Assembly (NCBI RefSeq): GCF_016765585.1
Contig: NZ_JAESWC010000002.1
Span: forward strand, 434,001-498,000
Direction: 5' to 3'
DNA from: Clostridium rhizosphaerae
Lineage (GTDB): Bacteria; Bacillota; Clostridia; Clostridiales; Clostridiaceae
DNA length: 64,000 nucleotides
The notes under the pieces were generated by a model, which searched no databases, was not told the origin of the DNA, and saw nothing but the letters and a program-made list of their open reading frames with translations. Position numbers and translations under genes: made by a program. Below are positions 10,596 to 57,302 of the stretch, piece after piece; the first letter of the stretch is position 1, and each line of letters starts with the position of its first letter.

Positions 10596-10668
10596 TTTGG
10601 CGGGAGTATGTAGGAATCGAACCTACCCATGACGTTATTAGCGCCACAACACAGTTTTGAAGACTGGC
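10596..10668 (-). repeat. selC-proximal att repeat (3' part of intact tRNA-Sec)
   Basis: The 73-bp partner of 7516-7588, forming the 3' part of the intact tRNA-Sec gene. Only one base differs between copies, at 10634 in the variable-arm region. Confidence 0.85.
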
Positions 10669-10694
10669 AAGCACACCAGCACTTATCTACTCCC
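10598..10694 (-). tRNA. selC: tRNA-Sec, anticodon TCA
   Basis: Suppressor tRNA that inserts selenocysteine at UGA. The minus strand gives GGGAGTAG at the 5' end paired with the ATACTCCC 3' arm, a T arm GTAGGTTCGATTCCTAC, anticodon loop CTTCAAA (anticodon TCA), an extra-long variable arm, and an encoded CCA; about 97 nt, as expected. It has its own promoter and sits directly downstream of selB. Confidence 0.95.
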
Positions 10695-44620: not shown

Positions 44621-44639
44621 TTGTTCATCCCCCCTTCTT

Positions 44640-44725
44640 GCCTCCGGAGTTAGCTGACGGGTGCGGGTGAAGGTTCCCTACTGATAAATCAGATTAACCC
44701 CAACATTTTGGTTCCTCCGTACCTA
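44640..44725 (-). ncRNA. c-di-AMP riboswitch (ydaO/yuaA)
   Basis: The leader shows the conserved ydaO blocks in order: ACGGAGGAACCA, TTGGGGTTAATCTG, AGTAGGGAACCTTC, ACCCGTCAGCTAACTCCGG, closed by CGGAG/CTCCG. It ends about 20 bases before the start codon of the NlpC/P60 gene. In this class c-di-AMP binding normally shuts off expression. Confidence 0.92.
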
Positions 44726-44835
44726 TAAAAGGATTCAGCATAAGTTCATTATAGTTTATCATCAGTTTAGCTGTCAATGGTATTTAATGATATTTTAATA
44801 AATATATCCATATTTTGGTATGATATTTGAATTTC

Positions 44836-51888: not shown

Positions 51889-51901
51889 ATTTATCGCTCC
51901 T

Positions 51902-52090
51902 TTAATTTAGTCCTTTACCTGGAACTTTTCTTTCTATTTGGTTAAGTTGTGCTTTAAAGTTTTGTTTAACTCTTTCAACATATTCTCTTCTAAGAATCTT
52001 CTGCTCTTCTTTTTCTTCTTCAGTTAAGCCCTCTTCCTTACTTTTTTTGTATAGATAATTTATTTTTGCTATCAATTCATCAATATTCAT
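51902..52090 (-). CDS. DUF896 (YnzC-type) small protein
   Basis: 62 residues of mainly helical, charged sequence: MNIDELIAKINYLYKKSKEE, then EEKEEQKILRREYVERVKQN, the family signature. Start set at ATG 52090 with TGGAGGAAG upstream. Homologues such as YnzC/SosA-linked proteins have no settled function. Likely co-transcribed with hprK. Confidence 0.85.
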   Translation of the reverse strand: MNIDELIAKINYLYKKSKEEGLTEEEKEEQKILRREYVERVKQNFKAQLNQIERKVPGKGLN

Positions 52091-52180
52091 AACTTCCTCC
52101 ATCTGCATGTCTACGCTAATTTTTAAATTCTATATATGTTTAATATATTATATCACAGTAAATTAATTTTTGAACAAAAT

Positions 52181-52212
52181 AAAGGACTTTAGATTTTACA
52201 CTAAAGCCCTTT
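52181..52212 (-). terminator. Terminator of the pplA-like gene
   Basis: AAAGGACTTTAG/CTAAAGCCCTTT stem with one mismatch and an eight-base loop; ATTTTG tail on the minus strand. Confidence 0.8.
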
Positions 52213-52224
52213 GCTGTATTTATA

Positions 52225-53028
52225 CTATTTTCTAGAATCAATAGCCTTTTGAACAAGATCAGCAAAATTCTTTGAAGTTGTTGTTGCTCCAGCTACTGTG
52301 TCTACCTTACCAGTTTCAAGATATTTCTTTCCTAATGTTTCAGCTGCTTCCTTCATTGAAACCTTTGATGCAGCTTTCATTTGAGTATTGTATTGAGTAT
52401 CTTCTGTCTTTTTCTTACCCTCTTTATTTAACTCTTCATAAACAACGCTTGTTATTTTTCCATCCTTGTATGTTACTGATACTTGTGGTTTCCATCCACG
52501 TTCATCAAAGTCTTTAGCAGTTGCTGTATAAGTATCATTCATTTGAATTACAGTTTCGGAAGTATCTCCTTTAGCTGCTTTTTCTAGAAGAGCTTTAGCT
52601 AATGCTTTAGCGTTTTCAACTGAATGTGTAGCTCCAGTTACTGTATCTATTTCAGCTGCTTGCTTTTTTACAAAAGCTTCATTTATTTTTGGAACATATT
52701 CCACTGGACCTAGTCCATTTTTTGCTTTCATTGATTTTTCATAATTAGCATCGTCAGTCTTTAATTTTCCATCTGGGCTCTTGTAGTTGAAGTTTGCTTT
52801 TTCGATTTTTCCACCTTTAACCTCAATCTCTAAAAAAGGCTTCCATCCTTTTCCATCAATATGGTCAAATGCTGCGGAATACTTTCCATCTTTCAAATTT
52901 CCTGCTGCAGCAGTGGTATTTGAGTTAGTATTGGTGTTATTGTTAGCTGCAGGTGCAGCCTTTGAGCAGCCAGCTAGTACTGATATTGACATAGCTGCCA
53001 CTATTGTTAATGTTAATACTTTTTTCAT
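52225..53028 (-). CDS. pplA: Flavinylated lipoprotein, PplA-like (two FMN-binding domains)
   Basis: Surface lipoprotein that in Listeria carries two covalent FMNs and passes electrons to extracellular acceptors. Signal peptide with lipobox LAGC (Cys21), an Asn/Thr-rich tether (residues 26-43), then two homologous FMN_bind domains beginning at GKYSAAFDHIDGKGWKP and TYTATAKDFDERGWKP. Each ends in an ApbE target motif Dx3GAT: DTVTGAT (128-134) and DTVAGAT (243-249). 267 residues. Divergent from ndh2-eetA-eetB. No ApbE-type flavin transferase gene lies in the window, so it must be encoded elsewhere. Confidence 0.88.
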   Translation of the reverse strand: MKKVLTLTIVAAMSISVLAGCSKAAPAANNNTNTNSNTTAAAGNLKDGKYSAAFDHIDGKGWKPFLEIEVKGGKIEKANFNYKSPDGKLKTDDANYEKSMKAKNGLGPVEYVPKINEAFVKKQAAEIDTVTGATHSVENAKALAKALLEKAAKGDTSETVIQMNDTYTATAKDFDERGWKPQVSVTYKDGKITSVVYEELNKEGKKKTEDTQYNTQMKAASKVSMKEAAETLGKKYLETGKVDTVAGATTTSKNFADLVQKAIDSRK

Positions 53029-53066
53029 AAAAAATCCCCCTACATCTAAATTTATCCATCGTTAAT

Positions 53067-53095
53067 ATTTTAACATTAGATGTAAACATTGTCAA
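53067..53095 (-). promoter_or_regulatory. Promoter of the pplA-like gene
   Basis: Minus strand TTGACA (53095-53090), 17-base spacer, TAAAAT (53072-53067), about 40 bases upstream of the start codon. Confidence 0.8.
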
Positions 53096-53106
53096 CATGT
53101 TATCAA
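53089..53106. promoter_or_regulatory. Rex-like operator overlapping the pplA -35 box
   Basis: TTGTCAACATGTTATCAA matches the Rex consensus TTGTTAA-N4-TTAACAA at 12 of 14 fixed positions. It covers the -35 hexamer, so a bound repressor would block RNA polymerase. Rex is released by NADH. The site is in the 258-base divergent region and might also affect ndh2. Confidence 0.5.
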
Positions 53107-53286
53107 ATTATATAATTTTTTTATGGTTTTTGATAAATTTAGTTAATTTTTATTGTATCTTTAATAATTTATGAAATTCCTTCATTTTAAATGTAGACAC
53201 GCCTCTCATTTTTGTTTAAAATAATATATGAAGTAAGTGTTCATTAAAAACATTAATAAAATATTATCAAACTGAGGAGGTCAAAA

Positions 53287-55089
53287 ATGGGAGAGACAAA
53301 AAAAATTGTCATACTCGGAACTGGGTATGCAGGAGTTACTGCAGCTAAAAAGCTTCACAAGAAGTTTAAAAAGAATACTAATGTAGAAATTACACTCATA
53401 GGCAAGGATCCTTATCACACTCTTATGACAGAGCTTCATGAGGTTGCTGGCGGGAGAGTTGAACATGATAGTGTTCAAATAAGCTTAAAAAGAATATTTG
53501 GTGGTAAGAGGGTTAACGTAGTACTAGATGAAATAAAAGCAATAGACTTTAATAAAAGAATACTTTCTTCTGAAGAATCTACTTATGAATATGACTACTT
53601 GATTCTAGGTGCTGGAAGTGAACCTGCTTTCTTTGGTGTTCCTGGAGTAAAAGAAAACGGATTTACCATTTGGTCTTTTGAAGATGCTATAAGAATAAGA
53701 GAACATGTTGAAAACATGTTTAGAAAAGCATCTAAAATAGTAAATCCTGAAAAAAGAAGTGAGCTGCTTACTTTCGTAGTAGCAGGTGCTGGTTTTACTG
53801 GAGTTGAAACTATAGGCGAGTTAGTAGAATGGAAGAAAAAACTTTGCAGAAACTATGATATTAATGAAAGCGAAGTTAAATTAGTGTTAGTAGAAGCATT
53901 AGATAAAATACTTCCTATATTAAATGATAATCTTATAGCTAAATCAGAAAGATACTTACTTAAACATGGAGTTGAAATTATAAAAAGTTCTCCAATAACT
54001 AATGTAGATAAAAACTTTATAAACTTAAAAAATGGCAATGAAATAAAAACAAATACTCTAATCTGGACTTGTGGTGTTCAAGCAAGCAAATTTGCTTCAA
54101 GCCTTGGTCTTAAGACATCAAGAGCAGGAAGAATTCAAACAAACGAATATATGCAATCGGTTGATTATGATAATGTTTATGTAGTTGGAGACAACTCATA
54201 CTTAGAAGAAGATGGAAAAGGTCTTCCTCAAATTGTTGAAACTGCACTACAAACAGCTGAAACTGCTGTAGATAATATTGCTGCAGAAATGGAAAACAAA
54301 GAAAAGAAAGCTCATAAGTCCAATTATCACGGCTTAATGGTTTCTATAGGCAGCAGATATGCGGTAGCAAGTCTTATGGGTATGTCACTTTCCGGTTTCA
54401 TCGCTATGGCTATGAAGCATCTTGTAAACTTGCACTATTTATTTGGTGTTGCTGGTTTCAATGCTTGCTGGTCATATATAGTACATGAATTTTTTGATGT
54501 AAAAGAAAGACGTTCAATTATTGGAGGTCATGCTTCGGCTAAATCACACAGCTTTTGGCTTGCTATACTTAGAGTTTATGTTGGTATTATGTGGTTAATT
54601 GAAGGTATTAATAAAGTGCAAGAAGGCTGGCTAAAAGATATTAAAATACCTATGTTTATGGCTGATGCTACTTCATCTGCTTCAGTTGCAGATGGTGCTG
54701 CTACTGCTGTTCAGCAAGCACCTGCTATATTAAGTGCACCACCTCAGTTTTTCTCAAACTTTATGGGATTACTTAGACCTTTTGGTTTGCAATTCCAGAT
54801 ACTTGTGGTTGTTGCTGAAATAGGTATCGGTCTTGCATTAGTCGCTGGACTATTTACATTCTTAGCTAGTGCAGCTTCAGTATTCTTCTGTCTTAACTTT
54901 ATACTTTCAGCTATGTTTGGATGGGATAAGGTTTGGTTTATATTTGCTGGAATAGCATTAATGGGCGGAGCAGGAAGAGCCTTAGGTCTTGACTATTATG
55001 TAATGCCTTGGCTTAAAAGATGGTGGAATAATACTACACTAGCCAAGAAAACATATTTTTATATGGAACATCATATAACTAAAGATTAA
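53287..55089 (+). CDS. ndh2: Type II NADH dehydrogenase with C-terminal membrane domain (Ndh2)
   Basis: Single-subunit flavoenzyme passing electrons from NADH to a membrane quinone. N-terminal FAD fold IVILGTGYAGVTAAKKLHKK, NADH-binding region FVVAGAGFTGVETIGEL (about residue 165), and the second FAD motif VYVVGDNSYLEE (about 298). Ordinary NDH-2 ends near residue 400; this 600-residue protein goes on with about 180 residues containing four hydrophobic helices (DoxX-like), the architecture of the Listeria Ndh2 that feeds extracellular electron transfer. TGAGGAGG precedes the ATG. Confidence 0.93.
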   Translation: MGETKKIVILGTGYAGVTAAKKLHKKFKKNTNVEITLIGKDPYHTLMTELHEVAGGRVEHDSVQISLKRIFGGKRVNVVLDEIKAIDFNKRILSSEESTYEYDYLILGAGSEPAFFGVPGVKENGFTIWSFEDAIRIREHVENMFRKASKIVNPEKRSELLTFVVAGAGFTGVETIGELVEWKKKLCRNYDINESEVKLVLVEALDKILPILNDNLIAKSERYLLKHGVEIIKSSPITNVDKNFINLKNGNEIKTNTLIWTCGVQASKFASSLGLKTSRAGRIQTNEYMQSVDYDNVYVVGDNSYLEEDGKGLPQIVETALQTAETAVDNIAAEMENKEKKAHKSNYHGLMVSIGSRYAVASLMGMSLSGFIAMAMKHLVNLHYLFGVAGFNACWSYIVHEFFDVKERRSIIGGHASAKSHSFWLAILRVYVGIMWLIEGINKVQEGWLKDIKIPMFMADATSSASVADGAATAVQQAPAILSAPPQFFSNFMGLLRPFGLQFQILVVVAEIGIGLALVAGLFTFLASAASVFFCLNFILSAMFGWDKVWFIFAGIALMGGAGRALGLDYYVMPWLKRWWNNTTLAKKTYFYMEHHITKD

Positions 55090-55134
55090 TTAATTTTTAG
55101 TTATACAAAATTCAAGTAGAAATGAGGAATTTCC

Positions 55135-55515
55135 ATGAAATTAAAACCACTTGATATTGTTGTAATAGTTGTGTTATTAGTTATAGCCTTGGGTTCCTCA
55201 ACAGCTGCTTTTATTAACTCACACAGAAACTTTAATAATAAATATGTAGAAATTGAAGTTAAAGGGAAGCTTTTTAAAAAGCTTCCCTTAGATAATAGCA
55301 GTAATGAGCGAATTACAATTGATACTGATCTTGGCAAAAATGTTATAGAAATTTCTAATGGAAAAGTTAGAATTTCAGATGCTGACTGCAGAGATCAAAT
55401 TTGTATAAAAGACGGTTCTATAAATAAGCCAGGAGATATTTTGGTATGTCTGCCCCACAAGGTTGTGGTTCAAATTAAAGGTGAAAATAGCGATACGGAT
55501 GTTTTATCCTTTTAA
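55135..55515 (+). CDS. eetA: EetA-like membrane protein with NusG domain II fold
   Basis: 126 residues: one N-terminal membrane helix (residues about 7-27), then an extracytoplasmic NusG-II-like beta domain with CRDQICIKDGSINKPGDILV and CLPHKVVVQI. The conserved Cys pair (ADCRDQIC) and the CLPH motif define the family. In Listeria eetA lies between ndh2 and eetB and is required for extracellular electron transfer. It follows ndh2 by 45 bases and is followed by eetB after 11. Confidence 0.85.
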   Translation: MKLKPLDIVVIVVLLVIALGSSTAAFINSHRNFNNKYVEIEVKGKLFKKLPLDNSSNERITIDTDLGKNVIEISNGKVRISDADCRDQICIKDGSINKPGDILVCLPHKVVVQIKGENSDTDVLSF

Positions 55516-55526
55516 CGGAGGTATTC

Positions 55527-56069
55527 ATGAAGAAAACACAAAAGCTTACTTTTATTTCTGTGCTTGTAGCTCAAGCCTTAATACTTTACCTAATAGAAAG
55601 AATGCTGCCCGTTCCTTTCATAGCTCCCGGAGCAAAACTAGGTCTTTCAAATATAGTTACCGTGGTTTGTTTATATATTTTTAACTTAAGAGATACTTTT
55701 ACTGTTATTATACTAAGAATAATATTATCCACTTTATTTGGAGGTACGCTTTCAAGTTTTCTATACAGTATATCTGGTGGTATACTTAGCTTTTTAGCCA
55801 TGTATTTTATTAAACGTTTAGGGAAAGATTATATTAGTATCATTGGTGTAAGTATTACTGGAGCATTCTTTCATAACGTTGGTCAAGTTTTAATTGCGGC
55901 ACTTGTAATTCATAATATTAATATAATAGTATATCTTCCTATTCTTTCTATCGCTGGGATAGGAACCGGATTTTTTGTAGGTATAACTTCGAGGTACTTA
56001 ATGATATACGTAAAGAAATTACCTTTCTATTCTACTATAAATAATAATAACTATTTTAAGGGTGATTAA
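55527..56069 (+). CDS. eetB: EetB-like Gx transporter family membrane protein
   Basis: 180 residues, five to six membrane helices, with MLPVPFIAPGAKLGLSNIVT and GTLSSFLYSISGGILSFLAM, the hallmark of the family once called heptaprenyl diphosphate synthase component I. In Listeria this protein is EetB. It has an ACGGAGG site and ends directly against the start of the prenyl synthase gene, implying one mRNA. Confidence 0.85.
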   Translation: MKKTQKLTFISVLVAQALILYLIERMLPVPFIAPGAKLGLSNIVTVVCLYIFNLRDTFTVIILRIILSTLFGGTLSSFLYSISGGILSFLAMYFIKRLGKDYISIIGVSITGAFFHNVGQVLIAALVIHNINIIVYLPILSIAGIGTGFFVGITSRYLMIYVKKLPFYSTINNNNYFKGD

Positions 56070-57035
56070 ATGAATACACTTTGGAATAAATATCCTTTTA
56101 TATATTCTGAACTTGAAAATGTAGTTGATATAATGAAAAATAATGCTGTTAATCGTGAAAAAACTATAGAAAATTCTCTTTTGGATTTGATAAACTCAGG
56201 CGGCAAATTACTAAGACCTGCGTTTCTTATTGTTTCTGCTGGTTTTGGAAATTATGTTTCTGAAAAGTTTTGTAATTTGGCAGCTGTGGTAGAGATGCTT
56301 CATATGGCTACTCTGGTACATGATGATATAGTAGATGATGCTAAAACTCGTCGAGGGAATCAAACTATACAATCTAAATACGGAAAAGACTATGCAGTTT
56401 TTATGGGAGATTTATTGTTTAGCAGATGTTTTATGTTATTATCTAGTAATACTTCAATGGAGAATATGAAATTGCTCTCTGAAGCAATTTTTAATATATG
56501 TACAGGAGAAATCGAACAGTTTTCTTCTCAATTTTCAAAAGAAGTTAGTGTCAAAAAATATTTAAAGAGAATAGCTGCCAAAACCGCTGCTTTATTTTCT
56601 ATTAGTTTTTATGTAGGCTCAGCTGAAAGTGGCTGCTCAAAGGAAGTGGTAAGTAATCTATCAAAAATCGGATACGATATTGGAATGGCCTTTCAAATTA
56701 TCGATGATATACTTGACTACACTGGACAAGCTGATTTAGTAGGAAAACCAGTAGGAAATGATTTGAAAGAAGGTATTTATACTCTTCCTCTAATATACGC
56801 TCTTAAAGCTGATAAAACTTCATCTTTAGAAAAACTTTTAAAGAATGAATATACTGATGAAGATGTATGTAAAATAATAGATATTACAGATAAATTAGGT
56901 GGGATTGATAACGCAAGAGCACTAGCTAAAAGATACACTAAAAGATCTTTTGACAGAATAGCTAAATTGCCTGACTGTGATAACAAAAATATATTAAGAG
57001 AACTTGCTGAAATGCTGTTGTCTAGAAAATATTAA
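56070..57035 (+). CDS. dmkB: Polyprenyl diphosphate synthase (DmkB-like)
   Basis: Builds the isoprenoid side chain, here probably for the quinone used by Ndh2. First aspartate-rich motif LVHDDIVDDAKTRRG (DDxxD, about residue 87), second FQIIDDILDYTG (about 213). Immediately follows eetB. In Listeria the equivalent gene at the end of the locus makes the chain for demethylmenaquinone. Chain length cannot be read from the sequence. Alternative: a general heptaprenyl synthase. Confidence 0.85.
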   Translation: MNTLWNKYPFIYSELENVVDIMKNNAVNREKTIENSLLDLINSGGKLLRPAFLIVSAGFGNYVSEKFCNLAAVVEMLHMATLVHDDIVDDAKTRRGNQTIQSKYGKDYAVFMGDLLFSRCFMLLSSNTSMENMKLLSEAIFNICTGEIEQFSSQFSKEVSVKKYLKRIAAKTAALFSISFYVGSAESGCSKEVVSNLSKIGYDIGMAFQIIDDILDYTGQADLVGKPVGNDLKEGIYTLPLIYALKADKTSSLEKLLKNEYTDEDVCKIIDITDKLGGIDNARALAKRYTKRSFDRIAKLPDCDNKNILRELAEMLLSRKY

Positions 57036-57065
57036 AAGTAGAGATTTTCGTAAATCTCTACTTTT
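57034..57065 (+). terminator. Terminator of the ndh2-eetA-eetB-dmkB operon
   Basis: AAAAGTAGAGATTT/AAATCTCTACTTTT 14-bp perfect stem with a four-base loop at the stop codon. Confidence 0.9.
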
Positions 57066-57302
57066 AATTTATATAAAAATTATGACTTTCTTCGTCATTT
57101 CCACATATTTCCTTATGGCTTTTTTCAACATTTACACTCGTGCTATAGTAAAATTTAGTACTATACAAATATTAAGATATTATATTTATATGGTATTTTA
57201 TGTAACTTTATGATTAATAATGGCTTATAATTTTTCTTTTTCATTATAATAAACATGGTACAATATAAATACACCAATACTAAAGCAAACGAGGTGAGTA
57301 TT

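Follow-up and report, generated by a model that had tools for sequence, protein, structure and literature searches.

The FLEET locus and its features

We analysed a 64,000-nucleotide stretch of Clostridium rhizosphaerae DNA (hereafter the window; positions 434001-498000 of contig 12 in a 4.85-Mb draft genome that is 96.85% complete) that carries, at 52225-57035, a five-gene locus for flavin-based extracellular electron transfer (FLEET), a system by which some gut and food bacteria send electrons out to iron and which reportedly goes back to Light et al. 2018. The open reading frame (ORF) list and Pfam searches returned the genes, domains and boundaries that an earlier note on this DNA had proposed: a PplA-like lipoprotein with two flavin mononucleotide (FMN) attachment motifs, a type II NADH dehydrogenase (NDH-2) with an extra membrane domain (Ndh2), EetA, EetB and a DmkB-type polyprenyl-diphosphate synthase (Table 1). 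A motif search agreed with the claimed attachment sites at Thr134 and Thr249, and the ORF strands agreed with a pplA gene that diverges from ndh2-eetA-eetB-prenyl synthase. The gene order is that of Listeria, as far as the protein list in PMC8906456 gives it, where PplA likewise has two FMN sites (Thr143 and Thr265). The claimed absence of fmnB and dmkA from the window also held, with genome-wide hidden Markov model (HMM) searches placing no ApbE and no UbiA inside it. Five ordered genes of a single pathway that recur in relatives are not a chance arrangement, and the data support a Listeria-type FLEET core. As a whole, we favour, with some reserve, the explanation that this extracellular electron transfer (EET) system runs on a membrane quinone whose aromatic precursors are scavenged.

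The C-terminal membrane domain of Ndh2 matches DoxX marginally (24.8 bits, cut-off 23.6) and has hydropathy segments at residues 423-441 and 492-523, and the best solved chains for the protein are annotated as NADH dehydrogenase-like proteins. The polyprenyl synthase scores 269.1 bits on TIGR02748, under its cut-off of 456.55. Promoter-like sites within 51900-57300 are weak evidence because they are no more numerous than in shuffled sequences (23 observed, 26.4 from shuffles). Elsewhere, the window holds a cyclic di-AMP riboswitch (44625-44750, minus strand; RF00379, 93.9 bits) and a selenocysteine tRNA (10602-10694, minus strand; Rfam RF01852, 65.5 bits); from the latter, the host probably uses selenoproteins.

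Table 1. Genes and sequence features of the FLEET locus, in window coordinates
Feature	Position	Strand	Basis
pplA-like lipoprotein, 267 residues	52225..53028	-	Pfam PF04205 FMN_bind, two stretches; lipobox LAGC in ORF
Thr134 codon, predicted first FMN attachment site	52627..52629	-	motif DTVTGATHS
Thr249 codon, predicted second FMN attachment site	52282..52284	-	motif DTVAGATTT
Divergent intergenic region pplA/ndh2, 258 bases	53029..53286	.	promoter-like sites on both strands; GGAGG 5' of ndh2
Promoter-like sites, each 11/12	53089-53116 and 53095-53067	+ and -, respectively	consensus scan, weak
ndh2-like type II NADH dehydrogenase, 600 residues, C-terminal membrane domain	53287..55089	+	Pfam Pyr_redox_2 and marginal DoxX; hydropathy
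eetA-like, NusG domain II (NusG_II), one N-terminal membrane segment	55135..55515	+	PF07009, 118 bits; hydropathy
eetB-like membrane protein, Hpre_diP_synt_I	55527..56069	+	PF07456, 173.9 bits
Polyprenyl-diphosphate synthase, dmkB/hepT-like	56070..57035	+	PF00348, 234.2 bits
Terminator-like hairpin 3' of pplA	52181..52212	-	scan
Possible terminator, a 17-pair hairpin that overlaps the polyprenyl synthase gene end	57031..57068	.	scan, minus strand only

Partner genes in the genome and their co-occurrence in relatives

The genome encodes ApbE twice, both times outside the window, at 297.1 and 246.5 bits against a cut-off of 25.6. One copy, on contig 26, is lipoprotein-like and finds its closest solved chain in 7esa (219.6 bits; next chain 153), which PMC8906456 gives as the Listeria FmnB. 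The second copy stands in a group on contig 12 (about 589-594 kb; L012:5316-10403) with an 816-residue FMN_red/FMN_bind/FAD_binding_2 fusion, a 207-residue FMN reductase and a LysR regulator, which together look like a flavinylated soluble reductase system.

Three UbiA prenyltransferases were found, all outside the window. One (L011:8692-9669) is of the 1,4-dihydroxy-2-naphthoate (DHNA) polyprenyltransferase, or DmkA, type (NF004752, 361.8 bits, cut-off 289; PRK13387, 345 bits, cut-off 316) and lies about 6 kb from an ORF resembling an energy-coupling factor S component (L011:1797-2366). Another (L010:8993-9877) is MenA-like, under model cut-offs, and belongs to a run on contig 12 (about 59.9-69.0 kb; L010:7900-17044) of a second polyprenyl synthase (minus strand), the UbiA, cydA, cydB, two CydDC-kind ATP-binding cassette (ABC) genes and a 381-residue NDH-2, a clostridial gene run for cytochrome bd respiration. 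The third (L009:8686-9561) is MqnP-like (TIGR01475 subfamily, 299.1 bits, cut-off 180.8; MqnP_DT, 305.3 bits, cut-off 430) and is followed by an NMT1-type substrate-binding protein (SBP) gene and two ABC genes. On the opposite strand, a UbiX gene with a PAC_bac protein, which we take to resemble LpdD, and a 609-residue UbiD lie one on each side of the MqnP-like gene and importer. The bd-oxidase run and the EET locus thus each have their own NDH-2 and polyprenyl synthase, and the genome has two DHNA-type prenyltransferase genes; we infer, rather than observe, which of them serves the bd-oxidase chain and which the EET chain.

The HMM searches of the draft gave no match to MenD or to the MqnA/MqnD family (PF02621). 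The genome therefore combines late prenylation genes with unmatched MenD and MqnA/MqnD, the profile of a quinone-precursor auxotroph such as Lactiplantibacillus plantarum. With no MenD match, the organism probably makes no DHNA of its own. Because the last steps are present while MenD and MqnA/MqnD were not found, precursor uptake as in L. plantarum is the better fit, and the gene content suggests that the electron carrier is built from ring compounds taken from the surroundings. Synthesis of DHNA by a recognisable Men or futalosine route was rejected, as MenD and MqnA/MqnD are unmatched here and nearly so among FLEET-positive relatives. A genome without ApbE and one without any prenyltransferase were likewise rejected, by two and three matches, respectively.

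The interpretation in the earlier note is thus partly supported. Its suggestion of a demethylmenaquinone-like carrier made by genes elsewhere stands for the last steps only, where DHNA-type prenyltransferases are present. It had named a genome lacking ApbE or a quinone pathway as evidence against its reading: both ApbE copies and the prenyltransferases were found, and MenD and MqnA/MqnD were not. The usual view that it cites, of Clostridium species as lacking respiratory quinones, is too general, given the MenA-like/CydABDC/NDH-2 run in this genome and FLEET-type Ndh2 in 23 of 58 genomes.

Those 58 genomes, C. rhizosphaerae included, were sampled for co-occurrence, with thresholds set by eye in gaps of the match lists. 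FLEET-type Ndh2 was taken at a best E-value of 1.4e-78 or better (the next is G014, 2.4e-20 in a 670-residue frame), the DmkA type at 5.5e-87 or better and the MqnP type at 4.5e-55 or better (next UbiA 1.7e-35). G014 also has a 36%-identical DmkA match (1.9e-54) and was counted as lacking both; the UbiA of G054 was under the cut-off and was excluded from the counts. With FLEET-type Ndh2 in 23/58 genomes, this one included, the FLEET locus itself is not rare. The DmkA type occurs in 17 genomes, the MqnP type in 15, MqnL over its cut-off in 13, ApbE in 49, MenD over its cut-off in 2 and a weak PF02621 match over its cut-off in 3.

DmkA-type and/or MqnP-type enzymes track FLEET: they are present in 20 of the 23 FLEET-positive genomes and in 1 of the 35 others (Fisher P-value 1.9e-11, which takes related genomes as independent; collapsed to genera, 17/19 versus 1/27, 1.6e-9). 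Any UbiA over the cut-off is found in 23/23 versus 13/35. The UbiAs of the three FLEET-positive genomes with neither type best match DHNA-prenyltransferase models, under their cut-offs, and the single FLEET-negative genome with either type is G053, which is 82% complete. Eleven genomes have both types. Neither FLEET-type Ndh2 nor a DmkA-type or UbiA match was found in the same-genus genome G003. Among the FLEET-positive genomes, MenD is found in one (G016) and MqnA/MqnD (PF02621) in none of the 23. Over the whole sample, MenD exceeds its cut-off only in G033 and G016 (L074, L075); G016 has its EET genes with an MqnL-P-M set and a second Ndh2 near menD.

A predicted prenylation and decarboxylation module linked to an ABC importer

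MqnP, MqnL and MqnM are predicted enzymes of the late futalosine pathway, and in 2016 the transporters of quinone precursors were left to be annotated (PMC4746308). We scanned named genomes with 15 aligned MqnP-like proteins and kept the best 80 of 207 loci, a set that therefore favours near relatives of the query. Gene names come from BLAST comparison with reference proteins under identity filters; contig ends truncate several loci, and one (L184) has no assigned MqnP ORF. Per 80 loci, MqnL is present in 74, an SBP in 72, an ABC ATPase in 63, a permease in 60 and UbiX in 59. All six module genes occur in 47 of the 80; among the 56 loci of at least 18 kb, 39 have all six, 53 MqnL, 54 the SBP, 18 Ndh2 and 15 ApbE. 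The mqnL and mqnP genes overlap (median -32 bases, 73 loci), as do ubiX and the SBP gene (median -20, 39 loci), which ties the importer gene to the enzymes. By coordinates, an MqnL over the TIGR03701 cut-off adjoins an MqnP-type UbiA in 13 of the 58 sampled genomes, and MqnA/MqnD was matched in none of these 13.

The module also stands near EET genes. Both lie within one stretch of at most 20 kb in 8 of the 15 MqnP-type genomes (near ndh2 in G006, G007, G016, G027, G029 and G048; near eetA/eetB/apbE in G041 and G043), and two of the remaining seven (G018, G053) carry the module on contigs shorter than 10 kb. Among the 80 named loci, 21 have Ndh2 and 24 have any EET gene, and the gene arrangement varies by group. 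Clostridium celatum (L162) has a single run, ndh2-hepT-U32-aminotransferase-PACb-mqnL-mqnP-ubiX-SBP-ABC-ABC-apbE-eetA-eetB-pplA, in which PACb and apbE run in the opposite direction. Fervidicola and Thermovorax (L220, L198) have mqnL-mqnP-ubiX-SBP-ABC-ABC-ndh2, followed on the other strand by hepT, pplA and a menA-like gene; Fervidicola ferrireducens and Thermovorax subterraneus are iron reducers, a trait that the passages of one genome note do not state. Two counts argue against a close tie: Ndh2 is absent from the examined stretch in 38 of the 56 longer loci, and the SBP has no recognised ATPase or permease gene in 6 of them, all Bacilli (L167, L169, L174, L177, L199, L219).

In several loci (including L115:4596-7223 and L217:13005-15650), a small FMN_bind protein, an sCache sensor kinase and a response regulator follow directly after the ABC permease and are possibly a sensor of precursor or acceptor.

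The module of C. rhizosphaerae itself is a variant. Its UbiD is 28-30% identical to the MqnL of relatives and keeps N164, R169, H190, E233, E275 and D280 in the alignment, which we take to be the prenyl-FMN and catalytic positions. Of the solved chains, that of E. coli UbiD matches it best (159.5 bits; next kind 87.3), a 620-residue frame in G036 has a similar MqnL score (348.7 bits), and comparison of the C-terminal extension with the longer MqnL proteins gave no convincing match. As the UbiD is divergent and under the MqnL cut-off, we did not file the module as MqnP-L-M; at most, it may function like one. Profile matches place the SBP in the NMT1/SsuA class, its best sequence match among solved structures reaches only 29 bits, and fold searches set it among many binders with differing ligands. 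PqqT, the pyrroloquinoline quinone SBP, shares this fold class and binds a redox quinone; it is 17-18% identical, and other binders of the class score as high or higher.

A description of the mqnL-mqnP-mqnM module with its importer was not found in the literature searched, mostly titles and with most subscription journals outside the search. The literature covered included MqnL and MqnP in Firmicutes, transporters of precursors and U32 proteins in quinone synthesis, as far as the matches listed go. By title, no paper on an EET-linked UbiA/UbiD or futalosine route in Clostridium stood among them, and the words Ndh2, EetA and PplA were not found in the available parts of the flavinylation survey PMC8238504.

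Proposed source of the quinone and competing explanations

From gene content, domains, motifs, co-occurrence, operon linkage in relatives and the HMM-level lack of MenD and MqnA/MqnD matches, we infer electron flow, flavinylation, uptake, importer substrate and quinone identity as follows. Ndh2 would pass electrons from NADH to a prenylated membrane quinone, from which EetA and EetB would relay them outward to the pair of FMNs bound covalently to PplA; PplA or free flavins would then reduce iron or other acceptors. Flavin attachment to PplA would fall to the lipoprotein ApbE, whose gene lies on another contig, and the synthase in the locus would supply the prenyl chain. The quinone ring would not be self-made: the DmkA-type enzyme would prenylate DHNA taken up from outside, and the MqnP-type enzyme would probably do the same to a second aromatic acid that enters through the NMT1-type ABC importer and is afterwards decarboxylated by UbiD using prenyl-FMN made by UbiX. 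For the module in particular, the chances seem evenly balanced that it is, with its importer, a dedicated aromatic-acid salvage system feeding the clostridial EET quinone, one that together with the U32 protein and aminotransferase may even make an undescribed quinone.

Several observations weigh against this explanation. The early-step negatives cover MenD and MqnA/MqnD only, and do not extend to MenB, C, E, F, H or MqnB, C, E, in a draft of the stated completeness. The lipoprotein scores 182.3 bits on the NCBIfam PplA model NF041941, an exception model with a strict cut-off of 325, and the UbiD scores 337.6 bits on the MqnL model TIGR03701 (cut-off 495.9). ApbE tracks FLEET poorly (22/23 versus 27/35, P = 0.07), and FLEET-positive G038 gave no ApbE match. 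In the sister species G001 and G002, apbE rather than pplA lies opposite ndh2 (L110:11834-12871, L111:11848-12972); HprK and CorA genes adjoin these loci, as in the window. Finally, according to PMC9888254, dmkA and dmkB mutants of L. plantarum equal the wild type in DHNA-dependent anode current and show a minor drop in iron reduction, with DHNA acting as a shuttle.

FLEET could also operate without a prenylated quinone, which may be dispensable here as dmkA and dmkB largely are for the EET of L. plantarum (PMC9888254): Ndh2 would reduce free flavin or a soluble shuttle directly, and the prenyltransferases would serve other chains, such as that of the bd oxidase, for which the genome has its separate MenA-like/CydABDC/NDH-2 run. 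We find this unlikely, as a polyprenyl synthase sits in the locus itself, hepT lies directly 5' of mqnL on one strand in 11 of the 80 named loci (median gap 24) and DmkA/MqnP-type enzymes follow FLEET Ndh2 in the sampled genomes as described above. It is similarly doubtful that the cargo of the importer is a flavin or thiamine precursor, or else a sulfonate, and that it stands beside mqnL-mqnP-mqnM incidentally. The SBP class fits such cargo, as SsuA and TauA are the nearest Foldseek matches to its model and ranks 6 and 7 go to proteins that bind pyrimidine and thiamine; the six Bacilli loci whose SBP is without recognised partners fit as well. A flavin or thiamine cargo is weakened by the 17 module loci searched, in which no riboswitch reached the gathering threshold 5' of the module; the FMN riboswitch of L170 lies 3' of the module, before a 189-residue ORF.

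The carrier could instead be an undescribed prenyl-benzoquinone, for which a hydroxybenzoate-type acid would be imported or made, prenylated by UbiA/MqnP, decarboxylated by UbiD/UbiX and hydroxylated without O2 by a U32 protein. UbiU and UbiV are known to hydroxylate without oxygen. A U32 gene lies near the module in 31 of the 80 loci, a class-III aminotransferase gene in 28 and both in 27; in C. celatum they sit between hepT and mqnL (L162:4281-7509). The U32 proteins have four conserved cysteines (30 aligned), and the one scanned matches the TrhP and UbiU models, under cut-off. Among solved structures, the module UbiD comes closest to E. coli UbiD (408 bits), and MqnP-like proteins also score on 4-hydroxybenzoate prenyltransferase models (the C. 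rhizosphaerae protein, 286.7 bits on PRK12888, cut-off 364). A benzoquinone-type product is kept in play because the U32 and aminotransferase genes accompany the module and a naphthoate precursor needs no hydroxylation. We nevertheless judge it improbable: the examined stretch has neither gene in 48 of the 80 loci and either in 32, the module UbiD exceeds the MqnL cut-off in 13/58 genomes, and the scanned UbiD of L113 scores 655.4 bits on MqnL (cut-off 495.9) but 435.4 on the E. coli UbiD model (cut-off 788).

The organism compares with known systems as follows. Like Listeria, C. rhizosphaerae has an FmnB-like ApbE and a DmkA-like prenyltransferase, and a further set, in which CydAB stands with an NDH-2 and a prenyltransferase of its own, recalls the menaquinone/CydAB and demethylmenaquinone/flavin chains described in PMC9094743; unlike Listeria, apbE and dmkA lie outside the locus, MenD is unmatched and an MqnP-type module is additionally present. 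L. plantarum shares FLEET genes in a host without early quinone synthesis, and its EET runs on exogenous quinones (PMC10746273, PMC9888254); different here are the clostridial host and the ABC importer with MqnP/UbiD/UbiX genes, EET-linked in relatives. The late futalosine MqnP-MqnL-MqnM set (PMC4746308) has UbiA-, UbiD- and UbiX-family genes together as well; the present set differs in that the 13 MqnL genomes lack MqnA/MqnD matches, the operon includes an ABC importer and is often EET-linked, and the UbiD of C. rhizosphaerae is divergent.

Taken alone, the window locus is another member of FLEET, and the importer-linked, putative quinone salvage module is the new part. Gut bacteria with quinone-dependent traits yet incomplete quinone synthesis have been reported (PMC4746308, PMC5738691), no importer of soluble quinone precursors was described in PMC5738691 in 2017, and the uptake route of L. 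plantarum was given as yet to be identified in 2023 (PMC10746273). An operon that joins an importer to prenylating and decarboxylating enzymes, and that in many Clostridia adjoins or lies within an EET cluster, offers a concrete candidate protein for this question, a candidate quinone-precursor importer whose substrate is predicted. A Lacrimispora species grown in peptone-yeast extract-glucose (PYG) medium was reported without quinones (PMC11316579); a different Lacrimispora carries the mqnL-mqnP-mqnM/importer module (L189). If the proposed salvage is true, fermenters regarded as lacking quinones may respire with ones obtained from their neighbours, and precursor-free cultures would therefore miss the trait.

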